This document shows positions 38,875 through 46,477 of a DNA stretch of 64,000 bases, piece after piece. This DNA is from Halorarum halophilum (GTDB taxonomy: Archaea > Halobacteriota > Halobacteria > Halobacteriales > Haloferacaceae): positions 124,001-188,000 of the forward strand of contig NZ_CP058530.1 in assembly GCF_013401515.1 (NCBI RefSeq), given 5' to 3'. Every line of letters starts with the position of its first letter. The stretch's first letter is position 1. A program made the position numbers and the translations under genes. The notes beneath the pieces are model-generated. The model worked only from the letters and a program-made list of their open reading frames with translations, did no database searches and was not told the DNA's origin.

Positions 38875-39113
38875 TCGCCCGTCGTCGCGGCGGGGGAAGG
38901 GATCGGTCCGCGCCCGGCGAGCGGGCCGACACCGACGCGGTTCTAGCGGCGTTCACGACGGTCCCCCAGGCGACCGTACGGCCCCATCCTGCAATCAGAT
39001 GGTAAGTAAACCTTCGGTAAACAGTTGCAAACCCTTTCAAACACGTCCATTGGGTGCAATTCGACCGAACAATCTCGAGTACATATGACCCCGCTCCTCT
39101 CTGTACCGACCAC

Positions 39114-39404
39114 ATGCACGAGTTGACGGGATTCCAGCGCGACCTCCTGTTCGTCCTCAGCGGGATCGGCACCTCGAACGGCCAGCAGCTGAAGCGCGAA
39201 CTGCAGCGCACGCTCGACCAGTCCGTCCTGTCGGGACGGATCTACAGCAACCTCGAGACGCTCGTCGAGGGGGGGTACGTACTGAAGAGCGAGCGCGACG
39301 GGCGGACGAACGAGTACCGCCTCTCCTCGCGGGGGGAGGAGGTGATCCGGGGCCGGTTCGAGTGGCAACGTCGGCAGGCGGACCCGAGCCTGGTCGTGAA
39401 GTAG
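39114..39404 (+). CDS. PadR-family regulator (first of two)
   Basis: A 96-residue protein from ATG 39114; upstream in-frame codons are rejected because an ACATATGACC box sits about 30 bases before this ATG. The winged helix runs from LTGFQRDLLFVLSGIG through LKRELQ and SGRIYSNLETLVEGGYV to a wing (KSERDGRTNEYRL). This is the PadR pattern found in many haloarchaeal regulators. The paralogue at 42752-43042 shares the start F/LTxFQRDLLF and the same length. It is divergent in position from the PAP2 gene and may control it. Confidence 0.86.
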   Translation: MHELTGFQRDLLFVLSGIGTSNGQQLKRELQRTLDQSVLSGRIYSNLETLVEGGYVLKSERDGRTNEYRLSSRGEEVIRGRFEWQRRQADPSLVVK

Positions 39405-39453: not shown

Positions 39454-40236
39454 TCACCGCAGACGAGTGGCGAACCATACGCAGAACGCGCCGAGCAGAC
39501 ACCCGGCCACCACGTCGGTCGCCCAGTGGATGCCGAGGTACATGGTCGAGAACACGACGCTCGCCGCGATCGGGATCGCGACGAGGGGCCACCGGGGGAA
39601 CCGCTCGCGCGTCTCCCACGCGAACAGGGCGATCGTGACCGAGAGCGACGTGTGCAGCGACGGGAAGACGTTCGTGTTCGTGTTGACCTGACTCGTGAGG
39701 ATCTGGGTCTGCGGGTAGGTCGCGTACAGCAGCGGCTCGACCTCGGTGGGGAGCATGTTCCGCGGGCCGTAGGAGACGAACAGCGTGTACAGCAGGAGGC
39801 CGATTACGTAGTTGAGCGCGACGCCGATCGAGGCCCGCTTCAGCGGGCGGAGGTCCTCGATGGACGCGTACGCGACGAAGGGGAACGAGAGCAGGAAGAC
39901 GTAGCCGCAGAGGTATACCGTCGCCAGGTACGCCGTGAGCCACGGCGTCGCGAGCGACTGCAGGTCCGCGACGAACGACCCCTCGATACCGTGGATCGCG
40001 CCCGTGATGTTCCACCCGATGACCTCCGACACCTCCGGCGAGACGGTTCGAAGCGCCTTGTTGACGCCGAGGACCGCGAAGAGGAGCCCGATCCACTGGA
40101 GCACCTCCCGTGGGCGCGACCGCAGGTTGTCCACGACCCCCGCGAGGCCGTCGCGACCGAGCAGCGCGACCGCGGTGACGGCCGTCGCGAGCGCCGCTCC
40201 ACCGACCACGACGGCGGTGACGAGGAGCAGGGACAC
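39454..40236 (-). CDS. PAP2-superfamily membrane phosphatase / lipid head-group transferase
   Basis: A 260-residue membrane protein with about six helices. Motifs are the SYGPRN segment, FPSLHTSLSVT (histidine nucleophile region) and YLGIHWATDVV (second His and Asp). The FPSLHT form resembles the PAP2_3/Aur1-type enzymes that handle inositol phospholipids, rather than classical PSGH phosphatases. It probably acts on a lipid phosphate at the cell surface. It lies 20 bases downstream of the permuted solute-binding protein on the same strand and is likely in its operon. Confidence 0.8.
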   Translation of the reverse strand: MSLLLVTAVVVGGAALATAVTAVALLGRDGLAGVVDNLRSRPREVLQWIGLLFAVLGVNKALRTVSPEVSEVIGWNITGAIHGIEGSFVADLQSLATPWLTAYLATVYLCGYVFLLSFPFVAYASIEDLRPLKRASIGVALNYVIGLLLYTLFVSYGPRNMLPTEVEPLLYATYPQTQILTSQVNTNTNVFPSLHTSLSVTIALFAWETRERFPRWPLVAIPIAASVVFSTMYLGIHWATDVVAGCLLGAFCVWFATRLR

Positions 40237-40255: not shown

Positions 40256-42163
40256 TCACCGTGTCAGGAGCCTGCCGTCCGACGAGTACCGGTAGCCGGC
40301 CTCCCGGAAGTTCTCGCGGGCCTTGTCCACGTCCAGGTGTCCGTTCTCCCCTGCGAACGGGACCACGATGTCGCTCGCCCCGCCGCCGAGGTCGGGGGAG
40401 AGCGGCCCGTCGCGGCCGAGGGGGCTGACCGCCGGCTCCGCGAAGCCGCCGAAGAACTCCTCGACGAGGGACTCCCTGTCGAGGAGGGCGGCGACGGCCC
40501 GGCGGAAGCGGGTGTTGCTGTTCGGCGCCTCCCTGACGTTGAACCCGACGTGGTAGAACGCGTTCGGATGGGTGACCCGGAGCGCGAGGTCCGGCGCGCC
40601 CCCGATGTCGGGGACGGTCTCCGGCGGGACCGGCGAGGCCGTCGCATCGGCCGAGCCCCCCGCGACGAGTTCGACCGCCGCGGCCCCCGACGGCACGACG
40701 GAGAACTCGAGCGCGTCGAACGCGAACCCGCCGGCGTACCGCGCCGGGGGGCCCTCGATCGACTCCCGCGCGAGGAAGTGGTCGTCGAACCGCGTCAGGA
40801 CGAGCGACTCCTTCTCCTTCGACCGGTCGAACCGCAGCGGCCCGCTCCCGACGGGGGTCGGGTTGTCCCAGACGAGCGCCTCGGTGATCGAGTCCGCCGC
40901 CGCGAGCCCCGCGATGCTCGCCGGTTCGTTCCGATCTGCCCACTCGAGTTCGGGGAGGATGGGGGCCGCGAACGCCGCGGCGGCGACCCGACGGCTCGTC
41001 GGCCCGAACTCGAGCTCGACCCGGTCGTCCCCCCGAACCGACACCGACTCCACGAGCGACGCCTCCCGGCGGTAGTTCGGGGCCGGAACGGCGTTCTCGA
41101 GGGCGCCGAGGGAGGTGTCGGCGAGGAACCGGTAGGTGAATGCGACGTCGGCGGCGGTGAGCGGTTCGCCGTCGTGCCACGTGAGGTCCTCGCGGAGCGT
41201 CACGACCGCCGTCAGTCCATCGCCGTCCGCGCCGCCCCCCCACTCCCAGTCGGACGCGAGCCACGGGCCGACGGACCCGTCGATCCACCGACCCAGCGAG
41301 TCGTAGATCAGCCCCGTGACGGCGGTTCCGGTCCGGTACTCCACGGCGAGCGGGTTCAGGTTCTCGGTCGGCCGCGAGTCCCCGAGGGTCACCCGGAGCC
41401 GCGACTCCTCCGACCGATCGCCAGCCGGCCGCCCGGTGACGGCGTCGAGTTCCGCGTTCGTCCGGCTCGTCTGGGGTCGACCGGCTTCGAGGTAGTGCAG
41501 CGACGTCGACGCTCCGTCGGACGCCCAGCCCGTGACCCGGTCGGTGTGTGCGGTCCTGATCTCCTCGGGGAACGCGAGGACCGAGAACGGCTGGTCGCGA
41601 ACGACGACGCGCTCGATCTCACGCAGGGTCCGCTGGCGCGCCGTGCCCGACTGACCGCGCTGGGCGTCGAGCAGTTCGTCGAGTTCCAGGCTGGCGTAGC
41701 CGAACGGGTTCCCCCACCCCGGTTCGCCGTTGAACCGGGAGTGGAGCAGCGGCCGGAGGAAGTCGGGGTCGTGCGCGTGGGGGAACCGTGCGACGTACAG
41801 GTCGAACTTCTGGTTCAGGAGGACGTCGCGGTACAGCTCCTCCCGGCTCGCCAGCACCACCTGCGCGTCGACGCCGACGGTCGTGAGCCGGTCGGCGAGC
41901 GTGCGGGCCACGGTCGTCGCGCGCGTGTCGGCGTCCGCGGGGACGGTCTTGATCGAGAGCGACAGCTGTTCGGGGCTATCCCGGCCCACGAGTGCCCGCG
42001 ATCGCTGGATGCACCCGCTTCCGACGAGGGACGCCGCCCCCGCGAGGACCGCGCGTCGTCGCACGGAGGGGCCGGAACCGCTCCCGTCGCCGTCGGTGGG
42101 AGGACCGGAGTCGCTCGCGTCGTCGGCGGCGGAGGGCGGAGTCGAGTGGTCGCTGGATACCAT
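40256..42163 (-). CDS. Family-5 solute-binding lipoprotein with circularly permuted lobes
   Basis: A 635-residue lipoprotein: Arg-rich RRRAVLAGAASLVGSGC, lipobox Cys51. The first folded part (about 66-230) matches the C-terminal lobe of peptide/nickel-type solute-binding proteins: LSLSIKTVPADADTRATTVA, LYRDVLLNQKFDLYVARF, PDFLRPLLHSRF. The second part (about 255-635) matches the N-terminal lobe: LNPLAVEYRTGTAVTGLIYDSLGRW, LREDLTWHDGEPLTAADVAFTYRFL, and ends DVDKARENFREAGYRYSSDG, where a normal protein would continue into the C-lobe. The lobes are thus in reverse order. No permease is adjacent. Ligand is unknown. Confidence 0.82.
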   Translation of the reverse strand: MVSSDHSTPPSAADDASDSGPPTDGDGSGSGPSVRRRAVLAGAASLVGSGCIQRSRALVGRDSPEQLSLSIKTVPADADTRATTVARTLADRLTTVGVDAQVVLASREELYRDVLLNQKFDLYVARFPHAHDPDFLRPLLHSRFNGEPGWGNPFGYASLELDELLDAQRGQSGTARQRTLREIERVVVRDQPFSVLAFPEEIRTAHTDRVTGWASDGASTSLHYLEAGRPQTSRTNAELDAVTGRPAGDRSEESRLRVTLGDSRPTENLNPLAVEYRTGTAVTGLIYDSLGRWIDGSVGPWLASDWEWGGGADGDGLTAVVTLREDLTWHDGEPLTAADVAFTYRFLADTSLGALENAVPAPNYRREASLVESVSVRGDDRVELEFGPTSRRVAAAAFAAPILPELEWADRNEPASIAGLAAADSITEALVWDNPTPVGSGPLRFDRSKEKESLVLTRFDDHFLARESIEGPPARYAGGFAFDALEFSVVPSGAAAVELVAGGSADATASPVPPETVPDIGGAPDLALRVTHPNAFYHVGFNVREAPNSNTRFRRAVAALLDRESLVEEFFGGFAEPAVSPLGRDGPLSPDLGGGASDIVVPFAGENGHLDVDKARENFREAGYRYSSDGRLLTR

Positions 42164-42751: not shown

Positions 42752-43042
42752 ATGTTCGATCTCACCGCATTCCAACGCGACCTGCTGTTCACGATATCGG
42801 GCTTCGAGGAACCTCACGGGCTGAAGCTGAAGCGCAGCCTCCAGGAGGACTACGAGGAGGAGATCAGCAACGGTCGCCTCTACCCCAACCTGGGCGAACT
42901 CGTCGACCGGGGACTCATCAGGAAGGGAAAACTGGACGACCGGGCCAACACGTACCAGATCACGCGGGAGGGGCTTCGCGTGCTCCGGCGCCGGCGCCAG
43001 TGGGAGGAACGGTCCGTTCCGGACGGGCTCGTCGGGACGTAG
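42752..43042 (+). CDS. PadR-family regulator (second of two)
   Basis: A 96-residue winged-helix protein from ATG 42752. The pattern LTAFQRDLLFTISG, LKRSLQ, NGRLYPNLGELVDRGLI and a basic wing (KGKLDDRANTYQI) is the PadR fold. It shares length and many positions with the protein at 39114-39404, so the two are paralogues flanking the permuted solute-binding gene. The downstream arylsulfotransferase-like gene begins 220 bases later with its own promoter. The controlled gene is unknown. Confidence 0.87.
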   Translation: MFDLTAFQRDLLFTISGFEEPHGLKLKRSLQEDYEEEISNGRLYPNLGELVDRGLIRKGKLDDRANTYQITREGLRVLRRRRQWEERSVPDGLVGT

Positions 43043-44785: not shown

Positions 44786-46477
44786 GTGCGTAGCATCGAG
44801 GACACCGGGTCGAGGGGGCTACAGAACCTCAGCGACCGGCCGTCGCTTTCCCTCGAGGAACTGCCGTGGCTGGGGGTCGCGCTCTCCGTCGGGACGCTCG
44901 TCGGGGCCGTCTACCTCATCACCCACCCGTACCCCGCCTACGGCGCCGGGCTGTTCCTGGAGATAGCCGAGCGCATCGCGACGAACGGCTACCGCCTCCC
45001 GTCCCACGTGTCCCACTACACGGCGGACGGCGTCCCCCTCGCGTACCCGCCGCTGATGTTCTACGTCAGCGCGCTGCTGATGAACGGTGCGGGGGTCGAC
45101 CCGGTCGCGCTCACGCGCTACCTCCCGGTCGTCTGCACCACGCTCTACCTGGTGCCGTACTACTTCATCTCGCGGGAGCTCCTGAGCTCGAAACTCGAGG
45201 CGACGGTCGCCACGACGCTGCTGGCGGTTACGCCGCCGGCCCTCCAGTGGCACCTCTCGGCCGGCGGGCTGGTCCGGGCGCCGGCGTTCCTGTTCTCGCT
45301 CACCGGCATCTACGTCGGTATCCGCCTGTTCAGGTCGGGGTCGGCGAGGCTGACCGTGCCGGGGGCGGTCCTGTTCGGCCTCACGGTGCTCACGCACCCG
45401 GTGTACACGGTGTTCTTTGGGCTGAGCTACCTGCTCCTCTACGCCGCGTTCGACCGGACGCTCAGGGGGCTCGTCCTCGGCGCCGTCGTCGCGGGCGGGG
45501 GGGTCGCGCTCGCCGCGCCGTGGTGGACGCAGGTGATCGCCATGCACGGGACGGACGTGTTCGCGTCGGCTGCGGGGACCCACTCTGGGCTGCTCGGCGG
45601 CGCACAGCGGTTCGCCGCCGCGTTCGTGTATACGCTGGTCTCGAGCCCGCCGATCCCGGTGTTCTTCGTCAGCGCGTACGCCGGGATGTTCTACTTCCTC
45701 GGGACGCGCCGGCTCCTGCTCCCGACGTGGCTGGTCACGTCGGCGATGGTGATCGGGAAGGAGCGCTTCCAGTTCGTCGCCGGGTCGATGATGGCCGCGG
45801 TGCTGCTGTGTGCCGTGGTTCGCGGGGTGGTACACCGGCGACTCCCGGCCGAGAGCTGGCGCTGGGGCTCGCGCGTCGTGCTCGCTGCCGTCGTCGTCAG
45901 CGGGGTCGCCATCGGCGCGCTGTACGGCGCGGGCGCGCTGTCGATGGCCCACGCCGGGAGTCCGGGCCAGCCCCAGTTCATCGACCAGTCCGACCGGACC
46001 GCGATGACGTGGGTCGACCAGCACACGAACGCGAACGCCGAGTTCGTCGTCCTCGGCGACGCGGCCGAGTGGTTCCCCGCGTTCACCGACCGGACGATCC
46101 TCGTCGGCCCGTGGGGCGTCGAGTGGACGAGTCCCGCCCGCTACGCCGCACAGCTGTCGCTGTACCAGCAGCTCTCGACCTGTGAGAGCGAGCAGTGCGT
46201 GACGACGGCGCTGGCGTCGGCGAGCCTCGAACCCGAGTACATCTACGTGCCGAAGGGCCACTACACCGTCCGGGGGAACGCCCACGACGGGACCGATCGG
46301 CTCCGCCAGTCGCTGGCCTTCTCCGACCGGTACCGGCTGGTGTACGAGAACGAGGGCGTGGCCGTCTTCCGCGTCGAGGACGACCCCGAATCGGCCGACT
46401 CCCGACTCGACGACGGGAGCGCGACCGGGGGCGACGGGGGCAGCAGCGGCGGGGAACGCTCCGCCACCGCGGTCTGA
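44786..46477 (+). CDS. GT-C-type membrane glycosyltransferase-like protein
   Basis: A 563-residue protein from GTG 44786 with about ten membrane helices and a C-terminal soluble domain of about 150 residues. GT-C features are visible: an acidic motif in the first outer loop (AERIATNGYRLPSHV), YPPLMFYVSALLM after the second helix, and THPVYTVFFGLSYLL. The C-terminal part (WVDQHTNANAEFVVLGDAAEW) resembles the globular region of oligosaccharyl and dolichol-dependent mannosyl transferases. It probably adds a sugar from a lipid carrier on the outer side. It follows the arylsulfotransferase-like gene. Confidence 0.68.
   Translation: MRSIEDTGSRGLQNLSDRPSLSLEELPWLGVALSVGTLVGAVYLITHPYPAYGAGLFLEIAERIATNGYRLPSHVSHYTADGVPLAYPPLMFYVSALLMNGAGVDPVALTRYLPVVCTTLYLVPYYFISRELLSSKLEATVATTLLAVTPPALQWHLSAGGLVRAPAFLFSLTGIYVGIRLFRSGSARLTVPGAVLFGLTVLTHPVYTVFFGLSYLLLYAAFDRTLRGLVLGAVVAGGGVALAAPWWTQVIAMHGTDVFASAAGTHSGLLGGAQRFAAAFVYTLVSSPPIPVFFVSAYAGMFYFLGTRRLLLPTWLVTSAMVIGKERFQFVAGSMMAAVLLCAVVRGVVHRRLPAESWRWGSRVVLAAVVVSGVAIGALYGAGALSMAHAGSPGQPQFIDQSDRTAMTWVDQHTNANAEFVVLGDAAEWFPAFTDRTILVGPWGVEWTSPARYAAQLSLYQQLSTCESEQCVTTALASASLEPEYIYVPKGHYTVRGNAHDGTDRLRQSLAFSDRYRLVYENEGVAVFRVEDDPESADSRLDDGSATGGDGGSSGGERSATAV

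Follow-up and report, generated by a model that had tools for sequence, protein, structure and literature searches.

The product of the open reading frame at 40256-42163 is a family-5 (cluster C; Dpp/Opp/Nik) solute-binding protein that has undergone natural circular permutation; in this lipoprotein the segment that is C-terminal in canonical members comes first in the chain. The gene lies in a window of 64,000 nucleotides from Halorarum halophilum, the window being the whole stretch of DNA that was analysed. The subfamily to which the protein belongs (subfamily A) is coupled by gene order and genome content to one family of PAP2-superfamily membrane enzymes. Taken as a whole, the explanation that we consider likely is that a natural circular permutation, found elsewhere as the partner of an importer, has here probably been re-employed as the extracytoplasmic partner of the PAP2 enzyme. 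The features discussed are collected in Table 1.

Table 1. Features of the permuted lipoprotein and of its neighbouring genes; positions are those of the window.
Feature	Position	Strand	Evidence
Circularly permuted SBP_bac_5 Tat lipoprotein, CDS, 635 aa	40256..42163	-	Pfam, homologues, HHalign, PDB matches, AlphaFold2
Twin-arginine / lipobox region, residues 34-52, Cys51	42008..42064	-	R36, R37, G50, C51 invariant
Residues 66-232, C-terminal segment of canonical members (second part of lobe 2 and last strands)	41468..41968	-	HHalign, PDB, model
Residues 231-250, variable linker from old C-terminus to old N-terminus	41414..41473	-	Homologue lengths, pLDDT
Residues 250-625, first two thirds of a canonical chain (lobe 1 and the beginning of lobe 2), up to the cut	40289..41416	-	HHalign, PDB, Pfam
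Membrane enzyme of the PAP2 superfamily (260 aa), encoded immediately downstream after 19 bp	39454..40236	-	Pfam, motifs, gene order
Arylsulfotransferase-like protein, 483 aa	43265..44716	+	Pfam Arylsulfotran_2, 39.5 bits
Protein of 563 aa containing hydrophobic segments, without a Pfam family	44786..46477	+	ORF, Pfam scan

The reading frame is intact, with 635 codons beginning at ATG. The lipobox stands before the permuted order, as the sequence-only reading of this DNA had it; R36, R37, G50 and C51 show no variation in an alignment of 13 homologues. The protein is placed in Pfam family SBP_bac_5 (PF00496) by a score of 150.3 bits against a gathering threshold of 32.4, the match covering only residues 298-630, i.e. 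profile positions 2-284 of 368. In most canonical members encoded by the same genome the Pfam match runs to about position 360. There is no full-length match in canonical order; the remaining part of the profile maps to the N-terminus of the permuted protein. Arg355 and Asp408 of DppA, which we take to be ligands of the peptide, fall opposite positions that are not conserved within subfamily A.

The N-terminal segment is recognizably that which lies at the C-terminus of other family-5 proteins. In the first phmmer search residues 84-228 matched the C-terminal part of 6lzu (370-517), 1xoc (375-491) and 4pft (376-492). A profile of the segment (residues ~60-232, 56 sequences) compared with the PDB matched 4qfk at 383-514 (E = 1.6e-16), E. 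coli DppA (1dpp) at 346-487 (E = 2.1e-15) and 1xoc at 362-496 (E = 4.7e-14), and for all full-length chains listed among the 60 matches the location was C-terminal. The second part (the core) of the full profile matched DppA at 30-339 (E = 4e-62) and 1xoc at 28-345 (E = 9e-66). The two matches to DppA therefore place the cut between about 340 and 345 in DppA numbering.

Alignment by HHalign with a haloarchaeal binding protein of canonical order, encoded by the same genome, gave two matches in swapped order, residues 250-625 corresponding to canonical 82-401 and residues 66-206 to canonical 403-539 (probability 95.9%, E = 5.8e-9). On rotation of the profile these merge into a single alignment over canonical 83-539 (449 columns, E = 9e-46), with a score of 356.8 compared to 297.6 for the native order. 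Rotation likewise merges the matches to a second canonical protein (526 columns). At the joint the first piece stops at canonical 401 and the second begins at 403, with neither loss nor duplication. Each segment is present once, the two are swapped, and they become continuous upon rotation. HMMER scores obtained with profiles rotated every 20 residues were not discriminating, because local scoring splits the match into domains in any case, and HHalign was used instead. The proposal made from sequence of a natural circular permutation, with the canonical C-terminal segment placed first at about residues 66-230, is thus borne out. It had also been proposed that the canonical N-terminal part follows and ends at the junction with the C-terminal lobe. 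The order stands, but the lobe boundary does not; the cut lies inside lobe 2 and not between the lobes, and to speak of permuted lobes is therefore imprecise.

Prediction of the mature protein by AlphaFold2 with 56 homologues gave one coherent model, with a mean pLDDT of 90.4 and a pTM of 0.89. Confidence is lowest at the extreme N-terminus, in the linker (where pLDDT drops to 62-65 at model residues 181-200, equivalent to residues 231-250) and in a loop near residue 595. The linker also differs widely in length among the homologues (alignment columns 240-303). Sequential alignment of the whole model by Foldseek matched about 400 columns of family-5 structures (E down to 4e-15), including 4oet, 1xoc, AccA, NikA, DppA and OppA. 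When folded alone, the N-terminal piece has a pLDDT of 88 and its top Foldseek matches are 1xoc and 4oet; these are among the PDB entries matched by both pieces. The permuted lipoprotein is thus predicted to fold as one unit and to keep the parent fold.

In canonical proteins the termini are near each other beside the strands of domain I (PMC10924461). The permutation therefore links neighbouring old ends through the variable linker, and reopens the chain in lobe 2, which in YejA comprises residues 287-539 (PMC10924461). With the new termini at the equivalent of DppA ~340-345, the two chain ends therefore both contribute to lobe 2. The protein shares with the cluster C proteins (e.g. E. coli DppA, OppA and NikA, and B. 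subtilis AppA) the same fold, all the segments, and homology over both pieces, together with export and surface location. It differs from them in that the order is rotated and the termini are in lobe 2, so that the lipid anchor is likely to have shifted from lobe 1 to lobe 2. The two-lobe clamp itself appears to be retained.

The permuted order is not peculiar to the protein of the window. Two further permuted groups were found in haloarchaea, and both of these, as well as alphaproteobacterial homologues, adjoin permeases. One group, comprising L090 and its relatives, is present in 20 of 194 genomes. L090 (11550-13373; C2:41549-43369 in its own genome) is a third permuted SBP_bac_5 protein in the genome of the window, and its neighbours are OppC, ATPase and OppB genes and a CoA-transferase III gene. 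At the loci of the other group (L088, L089 and L093-L098) OppB-, OppC- and ATPase-type genes adjoin. A search of plasmids revealed the permuted order in the Alphaproteobacteria Nitratireductor, Roseomonas, Maritalea, Ketogulonicigenium and Microvirga (L129 5839-7482, L130 5803-7488, L131 5932-7542, L132 5806-7482 and L133 4626-6377), where the proteins are annotated as ordinary substrate-binding proteins. Four annotated examples belong to complete Opp-type ABC operons, with two permease and two ATPase genes adjoining, and several of the loci have genes for an M28 peptidase, a hydantoinase/oxoprolinase or a racemase close by. Five importer-linked members were tested, of which four are alphaproteobacterial and one is haloarchaeal, and in all of them the match to the Pfam profile ends at position 278-285 of 368. 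Since these permutants are encoded with complete Opp-type importers, the permutation would be compatible with ordinary importer function, and it probably arose in an importer-linked setting. We note that a Halomarina importer-type permutant (L135, NZ_CP100455.1, 9466-10743) has a transposase gene within its ABC operon, between permease and ATPase genes.

Subfamily A differs from other cluster C proteins in having no adjoining permease. For the protein of the window this had been noted from the sequence, and a search for BPD_transp_1 permease genes found none within the 64 kb; the protein is not encoded alongside OppB/OppC permeases and their ATPases. Of the 14 SBP_bac_5 genes in the genome, 12 are accompanied by two BPD_transp_1 genes no more than about 5 kb away; neither of the subfamily A genes, the second of which is at L023, has such a pair within that distance. 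The product of the gene immediately downstream scores 61 bits against PAP2_3 (threshold 27) and 54 bits against PAP2. It has the PSxH and HxxxD motifs of the superfamily, conserved as FPSLH...GIHWxxDV, and matches PgpB at 145-233 (E = 5e-7). It shares PAP2 motifs with the PgpB / PAP2_3 lipid phosphatases, and differs from them in forming a distinct and strongly conserved haloarchaeal family, which is confined to genomes that also encode the permuted binding protein.

At 46 of the 49 distinct subfamily A loci the next gene downstream, in the same orientation, is a PAP2 gene. Three loci lack one in that position; at one of these the binding-protein gene is the second member of a tandem pair that flanks the PAP2 gene. 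At L078 (7956-12528) one PAP2 gene is located between two permuted proteins (SBP-PAP2-SBP). The PAP2 family is present in 259 of 382 genomes, every one of which (259/259) has the binding protein. A single genome in both samples (G131) has a match to the binding protein without the PAP2 enzyme, and this carries an importer-type permutant. Shared ancestry inflates the p-values for this co-occurrence, and the argument for coupling is therefore that the two sets of genomes coincide.

Co-occurrence and gene order indicate coupling of the binding protein and the PAP2 enzyme, rather than contact or mechanism. On balance they incline us to the view that the subfamily A protein no longer serves an importer, and acts as a ligand-binding partner of the PAP2 enzyme on the outer face of the membrane. 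The Tat-exported, lipid-anchored protein would sit on the outer face and close on its ligand as other family-5 proteins do. It might then present or sense a lipid- or glycan-derived ligand for the PAP2 enzyme, as either substrate presenter or regulator, and the enzyme would be a lipid phosphatase or phosphotransferase in cell-surface lipid or glycan metabolism. If true, the partnership would constitute a binding-protein-dependent membrane lipid enzyme. The strict PAP2 coupling of this one branch suggests a widespread, uncharacterised surface system in the haloarchaea.

The main alternative is that the protein remains an importer component, an orphan that delivers a peptide-like solute to a distant OppBC permease, and that the PAP2 enzyme is merely co-expressed. 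There are many Opp-type permeases in the genome, permuted relatives are found in importer operons, and the predicted retention of the family-5 fold would be consistent with such a function. However, all 12 of the other SBP_bac_5 genes already have an adjoining permease pair of their own, and, even though ancestry inflates the statistics, chance adjacency does not account for a coupling to PAP2 as tight as that seen in 259 of 382 genomes. We regard the orphan importer as rather unlikely, and prefer the partnership with the PAP2 enzyme.

That partnership has a possible parallel in the mycobacterial lipoprotein LpqW (2grv), which is among both the sequence and the fold matches of the permuted protein. 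We know of no pairing of LpqW with a PAP2 enzyme. The chain of LpqW is in canonical order, the profile of the N-terminal segment matching its residues 408-468, so the permuted protein does not belong with LpqW-like regulators and the resemblance is one of logic and not of membership. LpqW has been implicated in the synthesis of envelope lipoglycans (PMC3229680), and it provides a precedent for a binding-protein fold employed in envelope synthesis.

The haloarchaeal permutants share a terminal motif of the type ...AGYxYDxDGxL, which suggests a single permutation event. Trees calculated from the shared core and from rotated full columns did not recover the permutants as one clade, nor settle the deep order of permuted and canonical branches; a single origin of the permutants was not rejected (p-AU 0.192). 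The chances seem to us evenly poised that the haloarchaeal and alphaproteobacterial proteins form a cross-domain clan of permuted cluster C proteins, of which one haloarchaeal branch is now an obligate lipid-anchored PAP2 subunit. A permutation could be mimicked if parts of two distinct family-5 genes had become fused. The gain of the permuted part from another gene was considered by the authors of the TpMglB-2 study (PMC4990184), and the unsettled deep branches of the trees are compatible with such an event. Against this, each segment occurs only once, the two pieces fit together at canonical 401 and 403, the alignment of the rotated profile is unbroken, and one cut is common to the haloarchaeal permutant groups. 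We consider a fusion to be improbable, and whether the chain arose by fusion or by re-cutting the protein is a circular permutant in its topology.

The same permuted order was found at 12 haloarchaeal genome loci, with about 42-54% identity. In a sample of the class, 264 of 391 Halobacteria genomes and 69 of 86 genera match the permuted protein (E <= 1e-60). Among the matches listed in a phylum-wide sample the sole one from outside the taxonomic order is partial, covering the core only, and no relative was found in a search of viral contigs. Profiles of the two pieces, used separately, assigned the permuted order to 98 ORFs and the canonical order to 22, a number of them having been retrieved more than once, and both orders coexist within one genome. 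The 98 permuted ORFs, which are from Halobacteria, are free of stops and joins, and so the order is fixed in relatives. Given these 98 intact frames, the presence in 264 of 391 genomes, and an N-terminal part predicted to match family-5 structures, a frameshift, an assembly join or an unrelated N-terminal domain is rejected as the source of the order, no point in its favour having been found; these were the outcomes that the sequence-only reading had named as refuting it. We note that an Anaerolineae match located near the permutants in the first tree was rejected as a permutant, since the two-piece profiles show canonical order.

There are few documented cases in which a large two-lobe binding protein has undergone circular permutation in nature. 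Natural permutation of an ABC binding protein is already known for a type I sugar binder, TpMglB-2 (Tp0684) of Treponema pallidum, a circularly permuted glucose-binding lipoprotein that is conserved in its clade (PMC4990184). TpMglB-2 has a Type I / cluster B sugar-binding fold in which part of the N-lobe is permuted and the cut is elsewhere, so this is a separate permutation; the protein of the window is a family-5 protein of cluster C fold with its cut in lobe 2, and does not fall in the Type Ic / cluster Bc class of TpMglB-2. For the Dpp/Opp class we found no natural circular permutation described in the open-access literature searched. Fixation in about two thirds of the sampled haloarchaeal genomes, together with the bacterial importer operons, therefore provides a natural test of the effect of anchor position and hinge topology on ligand binding and permease docking.

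Annotation models span only part of the permutants, which in public records are called 'ABC transporter substrate-binding protein'. No NCBIfam model fits them, the matches being partial and far below cut-off. In the homologue from Haladaptatus halobius (L134, NZ_CP085338.1, 6001-7764) the public annotation places the start too late, since the match extends further upstream, and the signal and lipobox are therefore left out of it.

Some further genes recur in the neighbourhood of subfamily A. Relatives of the arylsulfotransferase-like and 563-aa proteins are each found near 8 of the 13 other subfamily A loci of the first set. At nine loci of the neighbourhood set there is a gene of roughly 380-510 aa (by ORF call), mostly directly upstream of the permuted protein (L001 6538-7821, L002 6338-7876, L005 6470-7936, L075 9505-10881 and others); the two members tested had no Pfam match. 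PadR-type regulator genes lie on either side of the SBP-PAP2 pair in the window, at 39054-39404 and 42752-43042, and a relative is located downstream of the pair in L001.
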